Position numbers and translations under genes: made by a program | Notes under the pieces: model-generated | The model's database searches: none | Seen by the model: only the letters and a program-made list of their open reading frames with translations | What the model was told of the DNA's origin: nothing | In this document: positions 12,127 through 19,228 of the stretch, piece after piece | Position numbering within the stretch: position 1 is the first letter of the stretch | Layout of the letters: the number at the start of each line of letters is the position of its first letter | DNA from: a virus | Virus record (IMG/VR): IMGVR_UViG_3300035156_000217 | Coordinates: 1 to 28,736 of that record | Length of the DNA stretch: 28,736 nucleotides | Direction: 5' to 3' (one strand)

Positions 12127-15100
12127 TTACCCCAAATAGCCCAGCCGCACGCGTAGGACGTTATTCACGTCGTAGACCGAGACGTTTTGCGAGTTGATGA
12201 CCAGGCGGCCCTGCCCCGGCACGATGCCGTTGATCTCCAGCGTTCCATCCTTGTTCAAGATCCAGCCCTGCTGCCCGGCAACATAGTTGGTCGAGCTTAT
12301 GTAGTTGCCTATCTTCGCGTTGGTGATCGTGCCGTCAGCGATGAAGGCCTGATTTATGAACACCTGCCCACCCTGTACTGCGAAGGGAACCGACACCGCA
12401 CCGCCGGCGATCGTGTTGACGATGGCGAAGCGATCAGCTGACACGAGGAACTGGCTTTGGAGGCCGGCGCCAGTGTTCTCAATCCCCAGGCCGATACCGG
12501 CCGCGACGTATTGACCGCCCGCCGTGATCTGCATCTTCACGGACCACATTGTCGTCAACTTGCCGGACGTGTCAGCGTATGCGTTGGCCGTCTGCTGGAT
12601 CGCCGCTGTGTTCTTGCCGGTGGCATCGTTCGCGTCGGCAACAGACGCTGTCAGCTGCTGGAGGGTACTGGCCGTAGAAGATTGGTTTGTGGCGACCGTT
12701 GTCTCTACCGTGGTGACGCGCGCCTCGTTCGTGCTGACGCGGGCGTCCAGGACCGTGGTGCGCTGAGCCTGCGCGAAGTCCTGCTCAGTCCTGACTTTCA
12801 CCTCCTGCGCATAGCTAGCCGTGGAGTCCCAACCTTTTAGCGCGTCCGCCATCATCCCTTCGATCGGGTCGTCACGGGACGATGCCTGGATCGCTTGCAG
12901 TTGCGATGCCGTCGACGTGGTCTTGCCGTCAATGGTCGTGATGTCAGTCGTGTTCTTCGAGACCTGCGCGGCCAGGCCGTTGGCAGCCCGGATCGACTGG
13001 CCGCTGTTCACCCAGTAGGTCGGGTTTGGCGGTCCGTTCGATCCATCGGCCTTCGCGGGGATGTCAGCGGTGGCAGTCCACAGGTTGTCGCCTACCCTGA
13101 CGGTGTTGTCGCGAACGTAGGCATCCGTTGGCACATACGCCAAGGCGTCGACTAGGTCGCCTATCTCATCCTGAAGGTCGCTGATCCGCTCATTCACCGA
13201 GCCTGGGCCATTCCCGTCGATCAGATCGATGCGGTCCAACAGGTGCTGGCCCAACTCCGTTTCGGTGATCTGGTCCTTGATCAGTTCAAGGATCGGGCCG
13301 GCGTCAGAGCTGGCTTGACCCAACACGCCATTCAGGACCGGATAGAACGGACCGATGTTGCCAGTACGATCAACCAGCCGCGCCCAGAAGAAAAACGACG
13401 TACCCGCAAGAAGGCTTTGCATCGCGTATTCGGACTGCGGGTAAGCAAGGTCCGTCAACTTCGTCTTGGCGTCGAAATTGTTAGTCGGCCCATACCAGAT
13501 CTCCGTGCGCTGGGTGTCTTCCGCACCAGGCGGGAAAGTCCACTTCAGGCCAATGCCGAAGATCAGTGGTGTGGCCGTGAGCGACGTGACCCCCGGCGGC
13601 AATCCTTCCTTGCCGTTGAGCTGCGTCATTATCGAGCTGCGCCACGCCGAGGAGATGTCATAGGCGCTGACAGCCCGCACGCGCGCCAAATACGCCCCGG
13701 AGTAAATGCCGACGATATCGACGCTGGTTGCGCCGGTGCGCTGCACCTTAATCCAGTTGCCGTTGTCCTTGCGCCACTCGACGTCATAGCCCACCGCGCC
13801 ATTCACCGCGGGCCATGTCATCGTCATTGTGGTGACGGCCAAGCCCTGAGCGATCGCAGTGGTCGAACTCAGCGTCACGCTCGCCGGCGCCGGAACGACC
13901 GTCAGCGGAATCACACTGATCGGCCGCTCCTCAAGGCGCGCGCCGGTGTCGATGTAGGCAAACTTGCCCGGCTCATATTGCAGCGCCGAGATCTCGTAGT
14001 CGCCTTCGGTGGTGCGTTTGGTGCTCAAAACACGGAACAGCGGGATGGCCAGATCATCGGCGTCGAGCGCCCACTGAAGCTCAGGCCGTGGGGTTTGGCT
14101 GTACGCGGCGGTGACCGTGATCGCTCTGCCATTTACGGACTGCACGGTGCGGGCTTGCGCCTGGCCGCTGGGCAGATTGACGATCAAACGGTCGCCGGCC
14201 TTGGCCATCGTGTCTCGGTCCAACGTCACCACGCGGCCAGCAGCGGCAGAGATACGGCCGCCAACCTCGCGGCCAGCTAGCAGCGAGTCAGCCACCGGGA
14301 TGATGTAGCCCGGCAGTGGTATCGCGCCCTCCATACCGGTCTTAAAGGTGACGGTCCGATCCTGGTTGTTGCTCATCACCACCCACTTCCCGCGGCGCTG
14401 AGCTTCTGAGGCTCTGGTGCAGCCGATCGCGCTAATCTCGGTGGGTCTGTCATCGAAACGACGCTGCAGCGCCAAATCCGAATAGGCGGTCACGTCGGTG
14501 TCGTAGTTGTTGGCCGGGTTGTCGTAGCTGACGATGGCGCGGGTGTAACGCGTCTTTGCCGAGGCACTGCCGTAGTTCATTTCCCCGCCAATCACGTTGG
14601 CCCGGGTGAACACGTAGTCGAAGTCCTGCGCGCGCGGCATGTCCGCCTGCATCACGAGCTGGCCCTGCGCCCAGTAAGTCATGCCCCGGTAAATCGCCGA
14701 GATGTCGCGCAGCAGGGTCCAGGCATCTGCCTTGCCCTGGAGGTTCATGTCGCAGAGAAAGCGGGGCTCCTGCCCGCCGATGCCGTCCGACACCAGTTGA
14801 TCGCAATACTGAGCGATCCGGTACAGCTCCCACTTGTCGACCATGTACGGCTTGATGCGCTTGCCAAGTCCGAACCGATCTACCGTGCAGATGCCGTAGG
14901 TGACCCATGCAGGGTTGTTGGTCCATGCCTGCTTAAAGGTCCCGTCCCAGACGCCTGTATAGGAGCGCGCGACCGGGTCGTAGTTGCTTGGAACCTGCCA
15001 CTTGCGGCCTTTGCACTTGATGGTCACGGCCGGAATGTTGCTGAACTGCTCGGCGTCGAATTCGACATACAGCAGCGCAGTGTTGGGGTAGCGGAGCTTT

Positions 15101-15759
15101 TCGTCGATCACGTCAGTCAGACCAGCGATGAGCATCGTGTCGGCGATCTTGTTGGTGTTCTGGTTCGCTGTCAGGCGGCGCACGCGGATCTGCCAGCCAG
15201 AAGTCGCCGCCGGCAAATCAATACGGCGGGACCGCTCATACCGGGTGGTGGTCTTTCCGTCCACAGCCTCGGCGAGCACCTGTACGTACGCGCCGCCGTC
15301 GGTGGCCAGATCAACGGCATACTCGATTCGGTATCCGCCGACGTTGCCCTCGTCATCCTGCCGCTGCAGCGCTGGCCAAGCGAGCCGAATACGCACGGCA
15401 GAAAGCTGGACGTTGGTGATCGAGCGAATCCACGGGCTGTCGCTGCGCAGCTCAACGTTGATGGTGGTTTCGTTCTCAACTGACGGGATACCGGGGATGT
15501 AATCCTGCTCAACGGAGCCGGTGCGCCACTCCCACTTAACGTTCGGGAAATTGACGTTGCCGCTGGAGTCGTTGATCGGCGTGTTATCCAGGAAGATGTC
15601 GGCGGCCGTAGGCACGCCTTCAAACTCCCCCTCGCCCACTGCGATCAGGATCTTGGCCAAGTTGGTGGAACGCAGGCTGTCGGTTGCCTCCGTCGGCGTC
15701 TTCGGGCTGCTGCTGCCGCCTTTGGCGCCCCAGATGTCCACTTGCTCAGCTGCGCCCAT
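12127..15759 (-). CDS. J: Tail tip host-specificity protein J
   Basis: 1210 aa, close to lambda gpJ (1132). gpJ forms the central tip fibre that binds the outer-membrane receptor. N-terminal ~550 residues carry the family core (TNLAKILIAVGEGEFEG near 30-50; NNPAWVTYGI and GLGKR near 283-300; WTLLRDISAIYRG near 357). Two fibronectin-III-like stretches follow (about 630-830), then coiled-coil segments and a DUF1983-like C-terminal region (FINQAFIADGTITNAKIG) ending in the host-range tip. GGAG is six bases before the ATG. Directly upstream is the terminator of the KilA-N gene rather than gene I, so J may need its own promoter or read-through. Confidence 0.95.
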   Translation of the reverse strand: MGAAEQVDIWGAKGGSSSPKTPTEATDSLRSTNLAKILIAVGEGEFEGVPTAADIFLDNTPINDSSGNVNFPNVKWEWRTGSVEQDYIPGIPSVENETTINVELRSDSPWIRSITNVQLSAVRIRLAWPALQRQDDEGNVGGYRIEYAVDLATDGGAYVQVLAEAVDGKTTTRYERSRRIDLPAATSGWQIRVRRLTANQNTNKIADTMLIAGLTDVIDEKLRYPNTALLYVEFDAEQFSNIPAVTIKCKGRKWQVPSNYDPVARSYTGVWDGTFKQAWTNNPAWVTYGICTVDRFGLGKRIKPYMVDKWELYRIAQYCDQLVSDGIGGQEPRFLCDMNLQGKADAWTLLRDISAIYRGMTYWAQGQLVMQADMPRAQDFDYVFTRANVIGGEMNYGSASAKTRYTRAIVSYDNPANNYDTDVTAYSDLALQRRFDDRPTEISAIGCTRASEAQRRGKWVVMSNNQDRTVTFKTGMEGAIPLPGYIIPVADSLLAGREVGGRISAAAGRVVTLDRDTMAKAGDRLIVNLPSGQAQARTVQSVNGRAITVTAAYSQTPRPELQWALDADDLAIPLFRVLSTKRTTEGDYEISALQYEPGKFAYIDTGARLEERPISVIPLTVVPAPASVTLSSTTAIAQGLAVTTMTMTWPAVNGAVGYDVEWRKDNGNWIKVQRTGATSVDIVGIYSGAYLARVRAVSAYDISSAWRSSIMTQLNGKEGLPPGVTSLTATPLIFGIGLKWTFPPGAEDTQRTEIWYGPTNNFDAKTKLTDLAYPQSEYAMQSLLAGTSFFFWARLVDRTGNIGPFYPVLNGVLGQASSDAGPILELIKDQITETELGQHLLDRIDLIDGNGPGSVNERISDLQDEIGDLVDALAYVPTDAYVRDNTVRVGDNLWTATADIPAKADGSNGPPNPTYWVNSGQSIRAANGLAAQVSKNTTDITTIDGKTTSTASQLQAIQASSRDDPIEGMMADALKGWDSTASYAQEVKVRTEQDFAQAQRTTVLDARVSTNEARVTTVETTVATNQSSTASTLQQLTASVADANDATGKNTAAIQQTANAYADTSGKLTTMWSVKMQITAGGQYVAAGIGLGIENTGAGLQSQFLVSADRFAIVNTIAGGAVSVPFAVQGGQVFINQAFIADGTITNAKIGNYISSTNYVAGQQGWILNKDGTLEINGIVPGQGRLVINSQNVSVYDVNNVLRVRLGYLG

Positions 15760-15775: not shown

Positions 15776-15798
15776 AAAAAAACCCGCTTAAAGCGGGC
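15776..15798 (-). terminator. Terminator after the KilA-N gene
   Basis: Minus strand: CCCGC/GCGGG stem, loop TTTAA, seven T's. It stands 17 bases before the J start, so transcription reaching J from upstream must read through or be antiterminated. Confidence 0.75.
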
Positions 15799-15816: not shown

Positions 15817-16332
15817 TCAGGCCACATCGAGGCCGAGAGTCATTTGCAACTGATCTCGCCAGTAATCGACTTGGTGGACAAGCCCCGGCTTCTTCCACCG
15901 AAACATTGAAAGCTCCTTTCCGTTCAAGCTTGCAAGCTGTTTCGCGTTATCAAGAGCACGACAAGCGCGCTCGAATTGTTGTTTCTCGTTCAATTCTCCG
16001 TGCAGCAAAGCATCAATGTGCAAGTCGCACCAGATAGAGAACTTCATATCCAGCCATCGGGCAAAGACGACCGCAAGCTTGGGATGCAGCCATGTGCCGG
16101 GCGACTTACCACCACGGGAAGTGCTCACCAGACCAAAGTGACCGTGGGTCACTTTGCTTTCAAGTCCAAGAGCTTCAGCCATCGTGAGCATGTAGAGCTT
16201 AGTTTCTTCCTGCTTTAACCAGTCTACTGGCCGCTTTCCGAAACGCTTTGCCACTTCAGTAGCATTGATCCAGCCGTCGCTATTAAAGCGGACAGCCTGA
16301 CCTTGGTAATTGAATGGGATGACATTATTCAT
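15817..16332 (-). CDS. KilA-N domain protein (antirepressor-type)
   Basis: 171 aa. Residues 15-105 are a KilA-N domain, the DNA-binding module of phage P1 KilA and many antirepressors: GWINATEVAKRFGKRPVDWL, then GGKSPGTWLHPKLAVVFARWLD. The C-terminal 65 residues are helical and carry no second known domain. AAGGAG lies six bases before the ATG. The gene sits between I and J, has its own terminator and a highly structured leader with two sets of self-complementary segments, so it is probably controlled separately from the tail genes. Likely a regulator of lysogeny or a growth inhibitor; target unknown. Confidence 0.85.
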   Translation of the reverse strand: MNNVIPFNYQGQAVRFNSDGWINATEVAKRFGKRPVDWLKQEETKLYMLTMAEALGLESKVTHGHFGLVSTSRGGKSPGTWLHPKLAVVFARWLDMKFSIWCDLHIDALLHGELNEKQQFERACRALDNAKQLASLNGKELSMFRWKKPGLVHQVDYWRDQLQMTLGLDVA

Positions 16333-16359
16333 TTGCAGCTCCTTCCGCCTAAGTGAGGT

Positions 16360-16421
16360 GTGCAGGCAGGGGCGTAGGCGGAGCGAAACCGACCCTTTTC
16401 GGTAGCGAACCTAGCCTGCAC
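16360..16421 (-). ncRNA. C4-like structured leader / candidate antisense RNA of the KilA-N gene
   Basis: Closed by an 8-bp inverted repeat (GTGCAGGC at 16421-16414, GCCTGCAC at 16367-16360, minus strand), with small inner hairpins such as CCGA…TCGG. Inside, TCCGCCTA (16382-16375) is the exact complement of TAGGCGGA (16351-16344), which runs into the ribosome binding site of the KilA-N gene. The C4 RNAs of P1 and P7 work in this way upstream of ant genes. Assignment to the C4 family is inference; the complementarity is seen. Confidence 0.45.
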
Positions 16422-16448
16422 GGGTATCCCGAACGGGATTCTTGGGCA

Positions 16449-16558
16449 CAAAAAAACCCCGGTGCGCGAACGCGTCCGAGGCTTCTATTGCCCGGATGAC
16501 CAATCGATCATCGGGGATCTAAGCGGTCGGTTTCCCGACCATTTGAAATTATTGCGGG
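16449..16558 (-). ncRNA. Candidate small RNA between two terminators
   Basis: A 110-nt interval without an ORF, starting just after the terminator of gene I. On the minus strand: a GGTCGG-GAAA-CCGACC hairpin (16540-16525), a GATGA/TCATC stem, then a terminator-like hairpin with TTCG loop and seven T's (16482-16450). Its GAAACCGACC is the exact complement of GGTCGGTTTC in the KilA-N leader (16394-16385). No clear promoter is seen. Confidence 0.35.
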
Positions 16559-16560
16559 CA

Positions 16561-16585
16561 CAAAAAAAGCGCCTGTAAGGCGCTT
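16561..16585 (-). terminator. Terminator downstream of gene I
   Basis: Minus strand AGCGCC/GGCGCT stem with 5-nt loop followed by seven T's, about 60 bases past the stop of gene I. Confidence 0.8.
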
Positions 16586-16646
16586 TGCTTAGTAAAATTT
16601 CCACTCTGCCTGAAAAGTACCGCAATTGGGTCAACATAGCAAATGA

Positions 16647-17258
16647 TCAGGTCTTGTCCTCAGCAAGAATCGATGCAGAGATAATCGCCCCGCCCCACCG
16701 GCGTTCGCCGATGCAGATCGCAACAGGGTTGCCGCTGGCAGTCGTATTCTTGGCACTGCCAAACGCGTAGGAAGGCAGGTTGTCCGGCGAAGCGCTTTGA
16801 CTGAGGCCTTTGGCTTGAGGGCTAAGCATCTGAATAACACCTCCGGCGGCCATAGAAGCGCCGAGAGTTATCAGCGCGGAGCCGAAAGGCGCACCAGCAC
16901 CAAACGTACCGCCTGTTATGACCAAGCCAACGACAATCAATACCGCGCCCAATATCGTTTGCAGAGAACCGGCTCGCTTACTCCCCTCGAGCACAGGGAC
17001 AATTCGGAGCTCCCGTGTGCCCGCGAGTTCGAACGCCTCCGTACCTGAGTTTTTCCTGTTTCGGAATACCGCAAACCTAAGGCCCAAGCGATCGAGGCGC
17101 TTGATCTCCTCGTCGAACCCGATCAGCGTCGCTTTGAGCGCTCGGAATGCCTCCCAAACGCTTTGACTATCGATTGCCCGGCGGTGCTCTCTGCCGAAGC
17201 GTTTCGCGAGCGATCCAGAGAGCTTGATAACCGTCATTGGCGTGTATGTGGCCGACAT
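16647..17258 (-). CDS. I: Tail assembly protein I (lambda gpI-like)
   Basis: 203 aa, usual family length. gpI is needed for building the tail tip with J, K and L, though its place in the mature tail is unclear. The N-terminal half has a ubiquitin-like beta-grasp pattern (VIKLSGSLAKRFGREHRRAI, ELRIVPVLEG); two hydrophobic glycine-rich segments follow (ILGAVLIVVGLVITGGTFGAG, ALITLGASMAAGGVIQMLSP), then the conserved PSYAFGSAKNTTASGNPVAICIGE end. The binding site before the ATG is weak. It is cut off from K by 2.6 kb of accessory genes and from J by the KilA-N unit. Confidence 0.9.
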   Translation of the reverse strand: MSATYTPMTVIKLSGSLAKRFGREHRRAIDSQSVWEAFRALKATLIGFDEEIKRLDRLGLRFAVFRNRKNSGTEAFELAGTRELRIVPVLEGSKRAGSLQTILGAVLIVVGLVITGGTFGAGAPFGSALITLGASMAAGGVIQMLSPQAKGLSQSASPDNLPSYAFGSAKNTTASGNPVAICIGERRWGGAIISASILAEDKT

Positions 17259-17787: not shown

Positions 17788-18294
17788 ATGTCCATCGACA
17801 TACATAGTATTAGCGGCCTTTTTGCTTGGCTTTGGGAAAACGCCGCGACTGGGATCTGGGGCGGCTTAGCATTAGGACTCTCAAACAAAGCGTTCAAAAG
17901 ATTTCAAAATTGGGTAGCTGGACTTCCAACCGCAATTCGCGATCAGTCCCGTAAACCTAGTAGCCCCGTCGCATATCTGAGGAAGCTAAAGCTGAAGGAT
18001 CTGCGCCAAATTCGACAATTCCGCTTCAACGATACGTGGATCGCCAGGGAGATAAGCCGAGGCAATACCGCCCTCGCCCTCTTTGGGATGAGCTCGGGAT
18101 TTTGGTTAATTGCGTTAGGGCTAAAAGAGCAGGTACTCATCTCTGGGCAACCGCTATCTGCTGACTCGGCAACGGTCTTCATCTCTGCCTTTCCAGCCTA
18201 CTTCTTCGAGATCATGTGGCTCTACAGATCCACTCGCGCAAACAGACTTGTCGATTACAGGCAAAAAGCGAAGATCTGGCGCTTTCGTCGCTGA
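17788..18294 (+). CDS. Membrane protein, plus-strand moron
   Basis: 168 aa, on the strand opposite to the tail genes. Two clear membrane segments (about 93-113, TALALFGMSSGFWLIALGL; about 128-147, ATVFISAFPAYFFEIMWLY) and a weaker hydrophobic N-terminus (10-30), with a basic stretch between (YLRKLKLKDLRQIRQFRF) and a basic C-terminus. The ribosome binding site is poor. Repeat copy 1 ends 36 bases upstream. Opposite strand and separate control are typical of prophage genes expressed in the lysogen, so superinfection exclusion is a fair guess; no family is recognised. Confidence 0.65.
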   Translation: MSIDIHSISGLFAWLWENAATGIWGGLALGLSNKAFKRFQNWVAGLPTAIRDQSRKPSSPVAYLRKLKLKDLRQIRQFRFNDTWIAREISRGNTALALFGMSSGFWLIALGLKEQVLISGQPLSADSATVFISAFPAYFFEIMWLYRSTRANRLVDYRQKAKIWRFRR

Positions 18295-18308: not shown

Positions 18309-18334
18309 CAAAAAGCCCAGCGCTAGGCTGGGCT
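18309..18334. terminator. Bidirectional terminator between convergent moron genes
   Basis: AGCCCAGC (18314-18321) / GCTGGGCT (18327-18334). The minus side has a T5 tract, the plus side a weaker ATTTAG tail. Confidence 0.7.
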
Positions 18335-18752
18335 ATTTAGATTTGATCAGATCTACCGCGGACTTAAGTAGCTCCTTCGCAAGATCCAAGCTGGCGGAAC
18401 CAGTCGGAATAAACTCGTCGCTATCTCCTTTAGGCCTATGATTGAAATAACGGAGTAGGGCGACCAGCAGCAGCGTAGGTACTGCAGCAAGCGAAACGAC
18501 AATAGGGATGTCGGCTGTTGTATGCGGACGGAAGGATGCGAAGAAATAGCCTTCACCAACTGTGATCCGACCATTACCAAAAAACACAAACCCAAGCAGC
18601 GCGATGTAGAAGATAACGATTACTGCTGCGGCAAGGATAGTGACGATCCTCTGCCAGTCCGCACGCCATTTCTCAGCCTCAAGCGTTCGGCGGGAGAGGC
18701 TGAAGTCTCTAGCGTCACCGTCCGCTAAATTGTTGCTCTCGTCCTCTATCAT
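18333..18752 (-). CDS. Two-TM membrane protein paired with the ImmA/IrrE peptidase
   Basis: 139 aa. Acidic N-terminus, membrane segments at about 36-60 (IVTILAAAVIVIFYIALLGFVFF) and 82-102 (DIPIVVSLAAVPTLLLVALL), then a polar C-terminal helix. The start overlaps the peptidase stop by 4 bp (ATGA), so both are made together. It could be the peptidase's substrate, its membrane anchor or the effector it controls. Not a recognised holin: it is far from the lysis gene and has long soluble ends. Confidence 0.65.
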   Translation of the reverse strand: MIEDESNNLADGDARDFSLSRRTLEAEKWRADWQRIVTILAAAVIVIFYIALLGFVFFGNGRITVGEGYFFASFRPHTTADIPIVVSLAAVPTLLLVALLRYFNHRPKGDSDEFIPTGSASLDLAKELLKSAVDLIKSK

Positions 18753-19228
18753 AGAAGCCCTAGCGCTTTGAGACGGAACTCCATGGCGGCAGTGGAGACG
18801 CCAAATTTTTTAGCCAAGTCCCTCAGGTCAGTGACACCATCGCCGTAGACAGCTTGCTTCACAACGGCAGCAGGCATGAGCAACGCTGCGGCAAAGCGGT
18901 TCGCTGCAATCTCCCGCGGATCGCGAGATTTTGCACTGAACTGCTCAGAAGTATCGCGTGGAGCATCAAGGTCACCATGAACATGGTGACCTAGCTCATG
19001 CGCGATTGTGAAACGCTGACGCACTGGCGCCTCGCCAAAGTTATAAGTGATCAGGGGGCGTTCACCGGGTCGACGCTGATAATGGCCACTCTCATTTGTG
19101 TAGCCTTCGTCGAATGGCGTCACAATATGGACATCGATGCCCATAGCCTTAGCTATGGCTTCAGGGTCAACCGGTAATCCTCCGTCCCAGTGAGCGTCAA
19201 GGACGTCGTTTGCAGTTCGGTACTCCAT
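18749..19228 (-). CDS. ImmA/IrrE-family metallopeptidase
   Basis: 159 aa. Zinc site HELGH at 77-81 and the downstream Glu in REIAANRFAAALLMP (near 106) are the family signature. Members cut repressors such as ImmR of ICEBs1 or DdrO of Deinococcus and thereby switch on genes under stress. The usual XRE-type repressor partner is missing; instead the next gene is a membrane protein. A last helical segment (LRDLAKKFGVSTAAMEFRL) resembles the HTH-like tail seen in this family. GGGAGG lies 4-5 bases before the ATG. Upstream are three GACGAAGT motifs that look like an operator. Confidence 0.85.
   Translation of the reverse strand: MEYRTANDVLDAHWDGGLPVDPEAIAKAMGIDVHIVTPFDEGYTNESGHYQRRPGERPLITYNFGEAPVRQRFTIAHELGHHVHGDLDAPRDTSEQFSAKSRDPREIAANRFAAALLMPAAVVKQAVYGDGVTDLRDLAKKFGVSTAAMEFRLKALGLL

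Follow-up and report, generated by a model that had tools for sequence, protein, structure and literature searches.

The KilA-N gene that lies between tail genes I and J of a Pseudomonas-type siphophage is preceded by a structured RNA of the int-alpA type, and a loop of this RNA carries eight bases that are exactly complementary to the part of the mRNA leader that runs up to the Shine-Dalgarno sequence of the gene. With a probability of roughly 70%, as judged from comparison of sequences, the element would be a cis-encoded, single-antisense, C4-like silencer of the translation of a cargo gene (moron).

The window, meaning the entire stretch of DNA that was analyzed, is a virus record of 28,736 bases with structural genes of a Pseudomonas-type siphophage, and its features described here are on the minus strand unless stated otherwise. 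The tail genes encode the minor tail proteins L and K, the tail assembly protein I (gpI, 16647-17258) and J (12127-15759). The KilA-N gene (15817..16332), located between gpI and J as the initial annotation had described, has its start codon at 16332 and a Shine-Dalgarno sequence, AAGGAG, at 16339..16344, and encodes a protein of 171 amino acids. This protein was found to match PF04383 with an E-value of 2.8e-19 (69.4 bits, above the curated cut-off of 23.8), and its C-terminus shows a weak, sub-threshold likeness to ORF11CD3 (3.5e-4). It was assigned to PHROG 129, transcriptional regulator. The predicted structure (mean pLDDT 82) was observed to resemble the DNA-binding domain of yeast Mbp1 with a Foldseek probability of 1.00 at an E-value of only 7.9e-3, a resemblance attributed to the protein being a KilA-N protein, and a sequence search of the PDB returned no homologues. 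The protein contains a DNA-binding KilA-N domain, and an antirepressor-type role may be guessed for it.

The gene appears to be part of a larger cassette. A promoter-like sequence, TTGCTA-N17-TACTTT (16614..16642), directly follows the gpI stop codon; it was too weak for a consensus promoter scan of the window and was found by alignment only, being kept as TTG..-N17/18-TA..TT in 15 of the 15 aligned gpI/J KilA-N cassettes. Downstream of it lie terminator T1, AAAGCGCCTTACAGGCGCTTTTTTT (16562..16586; terminator scan, fold z -2.7), with a stem and T-run conserved in the same alignment, and a terminator-like hairpin T2, AGCCTCGGACGCGTTCGCGCACCGGGGTTTTTTT (16450..16483), recognized by folding and present in the class-A relatives shown. 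A further terminator, T3 (15776..15798; terminator scan), separates KilA-N from J, such that the gene has terminators on both sides, in agreement with the previous description of a unit with its own terminator. At the empty site of phage Medea1, the gpI-J gap is 57 bp long and contains a T3-like terminator only, without the promoter-like sequence; the promoter-like sequence, T1, T2, leader and gene therefore look inserted. With its predicted promoter and its terminators, and absent from Medea1, the cassette is classed as a moron. The promoter-like site is followed by T1 within about 50 nt (16614-16566), with a stretch, GTGGACATTTTAGTAAG, conserved in relatives, and a short terminated RNA between the two is possible. 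At the gpI-J junction of phages R656 (L429), Alize (L430) and U2 (L431), other small genes, often on the opposite strand, were found; in Pseudomonas phages, this junction is a hotspot for cargo. Accessory genes were also seen between K and I. One encodes an ImmA/IrrE-type M78 peptidase (18333-19228; PADLOC capP, 1.4e-26) and has a small partner; another small gene is convergent, on the plus strand (17788-18294), and neither it nor the partner belongs to a known family.

What kind of RNA precedes the KilA-N gene? The element (16360..16421) consists of a closing stem P1, the motif CUAG, a helix P2, the motif CGAAAAG, and a helix P3 whose loop carries the antisense segment. The P1 arms, GTGCAGGC (16421-16414) and GCCTGCAC (16367-16360), form 8 bp, and the CUAG-P2-CGAAAAG core inside them reads CUAGGUUCGCUACCGAAAAG. 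At the curated threshold, the sole Rfam match in the window was int-alpA RNA (RF02996) at 16421-16347, which aligned end to end with 36.3 bits (E 1.2e-5 in 1 kb), a marginal score only 0.5 bits over the cut-off of 35.8. A separate covariance model, R1, built from 35 other int-alpA-type elements, none of them from KilA-N leaders, matched the same element with 33.4 bits (E 8.7e-7 over 203 kb) and gave no second match in the window. In 30 diverse elements of the int-alpA family, 95.6% of the stem cells were paired and 138 cells were double-changed, as against 41 in shuffles, a signal that collapsed when the partner was slid by one column; the CUAG/CGAAAA core was found to be invariant beyond its helices. 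The element shares the P1, CUAG, P2, CGAAAAG, P3 plan of int-alpA RNA, but its P3 loop is longer (20 vs. 13 nt in the consensus of the alignment) and it precedes a KilA-N cargo gene among the tail genes I and J rather than lying in an int-alpA interval. Location does not define the fold, because elements of this class (class I) generally precede many genes. From these comparisons, membership of the int-alpA family is well supported for the element, even though its score is marginal. The initial annotation had inferred membership of the C4 RNAs, which the model test rejected: with permissive filters, the C4 model (RF01695) gave no match in the window at the gathering threshold or at E<=5, and the same model matches many C4 copies in Pseudomonas genomes. 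The int-alpA RNA was originally defined by bioinformatics. Its Rfam entry describes an sRNA and states no function, and no functional account of it was found in the searchable literature.

The antisense segment in the P3 loop, UCCGCCUA (16375..16382), faces a target segment in the mRNA leader, UAGGCGGA (16344..16351): the loop bases TCCGCCTA (16382-16375) are the exact complement of TAGGCGGA (16351-16344), and the last base of the target is the first A of the Shine-Dalgarno AAGGAG (16344-16339). A check of the letters bore out the 8-bp closed stem-loop at 16360-16421 and the complement at the ribosome-binding site (RBS), both previously noted. The antisense 8-mer and its complement each occur once in the 28.7-kb window when both strands are searched. 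A match as long was obtained in 1.3% of dinucleotide shuffles, making it moderately unusual on one sequence, and the weight of the argument therefore rests on relatives. GCUCC (16384-16380), also in the loop, is an alternative possible partner for GGAGC of the Shine-Dalgarno sequence. In the relative L158, both sides of this alternative pairing are changed, to CUCCC and GGGAG, a single co-change within the clade of the window that is suggestive of pairing. The whole leader folds no better than shuffled sequences. A small hairpin, GAATCCCGTTCGGGATACCC (16422..16441), lies directly 5' of the element, and hairpins at the same place were found in most leaders of classes A, B and C.

A loop that is antisense to the gene behind it is expected to match the leader of that gene better than foreign leaders. 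For KilA-N leaders, one per class (n=11), the longest match averaged 7.27 for cognate and 5.14 for swapped combinations (permutation p 5e-5). DNA patterns for the cores gathered 234 elements preceding 47 clusters of unrelated genes, and with one element per unrelated downstream gene cluster (n=44) the means were 6.16 cognate and 4.74 swapped (permutation z 10.6); cells are not phylogenetically independent. In 82 int-alpA-class elements, the antisense loop alone gave 5.93 cognate vs. 4.15 swapped, whereas both controls on the same elements were flat (4.00 vs. 3.90 for the 5' half, 3.63 vs. 3.78 for same-strand identity). The position of the antisense within the loop is constant, and most targets are found 6-12 nt past the closing stem, with register shifts of a few nucleotides in the alignment. 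Within class B, antisense and target were observed to change in compensation (UUCGUUCAUC/GAUGAACGAG, UCGCUCAUC/GAUGAGCGA, UCCGUUCAUC/GGUGAACGGA and UCGCCCA/UGGGCGA). Class C showed only a weak antisense/target match, and in about one-third of the int-alpA-class elements the contiguous cognate match is shorter than six pairs. Classes A to D could not be told apart by whole-duplex energies of loop against leader (RNAduplex), in which scattered G-C pairs outweigh the rest, and the longest contiguous match with swap controls was used in their place. In the clade of the window itself, antisense and target hardly vary, and so its particular 8 bp are supported mainly by analogy with the sister classes. 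The C4-like antisense logic at the RBS that had been suggested for this locus is supported by co-change of antisense and target, both between leader classes and over 44 unrelated genes.

Relatives of the KilA-N protein are encoded at 78 viral and 10 genomic loci, and 96 phage records were matched by protein. Where the gene sits at I/J, its leader belongs to class A, as in the window; at other positions among virion genes, D3 orf11 being an example, class-B leaders are frequent, with a similar plan and a different antisense. Other Pseudomonas phages have classes C and D, Halomonas has class E, and further leader types were seen in SPN3UB, in HK97 and in Klebsiella phages. In the Halomonas locus L073, AGAAACGAGC/GCUCGUUUCU and CCUCAU/AUGAGG together give 16 bp between the element and its own leader, taking in AUGAGG ahead of the start codon. 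No such leader element was found for the KilA-N homologues L020, L048, L063 and L079, the starts of which overlap or abut the upstream gene. In L094 (at 1501, HK97 gp73), L095, L093 and L096, and in the Halomonas loci L073, L086 and L087, leader elements lie about 120 nt before the KilA-N start, with a longest match to their own RBS leader of mostly 8-10 nt (GAUAUGAG/CUCAUAUC plus a second segment in HK97). These leaders gave no Rfam match, and from their sequences they appear to be unrecognized C4-like RNAs.

The element is not restricted to KilA-N genes. Among the products encoded downstream of int-alpA-type elements are KilA-N proteins, the pRha-P63C regulator, HNH_3, NUMOD4, Endonuclease VII, AP2/NUMOD3 and T5orf172/MUG113 proteins, DUF927 and DUF1376. 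The E. coli members show the order int, RNA, hypothetical gene, HTH regulator, and here, with int on one side and an alpA-like regulator on the other, the loop and leader share the complement GCCUUA/UAAGGC. Class-B and then class-A elements were found in tandem ahead of the pRha-P63C regulator in L092 (2415-2589) and L150; in D14C (L092), the gene that follows, at the head-tail junction, is annotated as anti-CRISPR. In L070 (2911-3743), a KilA-N gene with an int-alpA leader is followed by isrK and C4 RNAs, such that both RNA families are adjacent.

A second pairing had been proposed for this leader, making two antisense pairings in the manner of C4/ant. The complementarity exists letter for letter between GGTCGGTTTC (16394-16385) and GAAACCGACC (16534-16525), and a pair as long was obtained in 1.3% of shuffles of the interval. 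The upstream partner, GAAACCGACC, corresponds to the loop plus the 3' arm of a hairpin, GGTCGGGAAACCGACC (16525..16540), that forms locally between T1 and T2 and was judged to be outside the mechanism. It is present, with 9-10 nt, in only some class-A relatives; the hairpin partner is absent in L002, L031, L043, L037 and L061, in which the leader element is otherwise the same, and the longest match falls to 4-5 in L002, L006, L007, L031, L142, L166 and L182, in which the element is kept. The second pairing was rejected as part of the mechanism because it is non-conserved and its partner lies upstream of the element, whereas both targets of C4 lie in the mRNA leader. Of the two pairings, a single conserved one is thus retained.

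In the proposed mechanism, a moron cassette comprising promoter, T1, T2, leader and KilA-N gene would have been inserted between tail genes I and J. The gene would be transcribed at a low level from its own promoter through T1 and T2, or by late transcription of the tail operon. Because transcripts from the promoter must pass T1 and T2, expression of KilA-N is probably controlled at two levels, namely termination and antisense pairing. The cassette mRNA would begin with the int-alpA-type RNA, the P3 loop of which would present UCCGCCUA for pairing with UAGGCGGA at the edge of the Shine-Dalgarno sequence and so block ribosome entry. Translation of KilA-N would then be silent, or limited to a burst, whenever the gene is transcribed, with repression, timing and release all putative. 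The RNA may work in cis on the mRNA that contains it, or be processed and work in trans, or do both, and in its logic it would be a one-antisense relative of the C4 RNA of phage P1.

Other readings of the element have to be weighed against this silencer. The presence of antisense and target within one mRNA, and a core that is invariant to a degree beyond what a simple antisense holder needs, would also suit a sensor, in which a protein or small molecule would be recognized by the CUAG/CGAAAA core and the pairing of antisense with RBS would be only the output, the gene being switched by the ligand instead of by the dose of antisense. However, a metabolite riboswitch would hardly be expected in front of dozens of unrelated genes, where this core occurs, and the core could equally serve as a fold or processing signal, leaving the sensor an unlikely, though not negligible, explanation. 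Much less credit is given to the idea that the stem-loop is a mere structure for transcription or mRNA stability and that the 8-bp complement arose by chance. The poor folding of the leader overall and a chance of about 1% for the match on this one sequence leave some room for it, but the cognate-versus-swapped tests across the family and the compensatory changes within class B speak against it. About as improbable, and if anything slightly more so, is that the element is a true C4 member with two antisense loops directed against an ant-type mRNA. It shares with C4 the P1/P2/P3 plan and the logic of loop to RBS (PMC5320573), and the target gene encodes a KilA-N domain. Nevertheless, RF01695 fails to match it at E<=5 even though it finds many Pseudomonas C4 copies, and one pairing only is conserved, the second partner being upstream and variable.

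How does the element compare with characterized systems? C4 is a three-stem, RNase P-processed RNA whose loops a' and b' pair with the mRNA of its target, with b' covering the RBS (PMC5320573; PMC12197685). Like C4 of P1 and P7, the element of the window has three stems, lies directly upstream of and codirectional with the gene that it matches, and directs a loop to the RBS (PMC5320573; PMC12197685). Unlike C4, it has one antisense loop instead of a' and b'; RNase P processing and action in trans were shown for C4 and would be hypothetical for this element; and C4 of P1 regulates ant, whereas the element here precedes a KilA-N moron among tail genes. With plan, position and loop-to-RBS logic shared, but one loop and no RF01695 match, the element would work like C4 but is filed under int-alpA, and the C4 label of the locus is thereby corrected. 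The Rfam C4 model itself matched in L122-L133 and in 91 of 99 sampled Pseudomonas genomes, with up to 39 scored places per genome, and in the examples examined the loop complements the leader of a short ORF close by. These examples resemble the C4-like sRNAs that A. baumannii has in multiple copies (PMC5320573). Separate isrK/c4-a1b1/C4 circuits are also present in related phages; together with the abundance of C4 in Pseudomonas, this indicates that C4 and int-alpA-type systems coexist.

RBS-sequestering hairpins silence the translation of phage homing endonucleases, namely T4 I-TevI and Aeh1 mobE (PMC3014915). Like these, several int-alpA-type elements are associated with mobile cargo, preceding HNH, NUMOD and T5orf172 genes, but the hairpins are simple local pairings of RBS and flank, whereas the window has a separate conserved RNA fold with a swappable antisense loop. 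As homing endonucleases are silenced in this way in T4-like phages, silencing of inserted genes is a plausible common purpose. A close parallel to the KilA-N moron is D3 orf11, the source of the ORF11CD3 name, which encodes a homologue with 54.7% identity, is likewise cargo among virion genes, and is preceded by a class-B element of the same architecture, but is located at the head-tail junction rather than at I/J and uses the antisense/target pair UCGCUCAUC/GAUGAGCGA.

The int-alpA family and the related leaders outside Rfam (class B/D of Pseudomonas, Halomonas, HK97/HK022-type and SPN3UB) are, as judged from sequence statistics, more likely than not modular C4-like antisense silencers. With similar, somewhat guarded confidence, they would combine one conserved scaffold with a swappable antisense of 6-10 nt against the RBS leader of the following cargo gene, the cargo classes being KilA-N and Rha-type regulators, homing endonucleases and satellite genes. 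The co-change of the loop with the leader of the following gene gives int-alpA RNA a concrete, testable function, and links C4 immunity RNAs, silenced homing endonucleases and phage morons. If this is true, cargo genes should be recognizable, and their silencing reprogrammable, from a short loop sequence, and phages and satellites would use the scaffold as a general gate on acquired genes.
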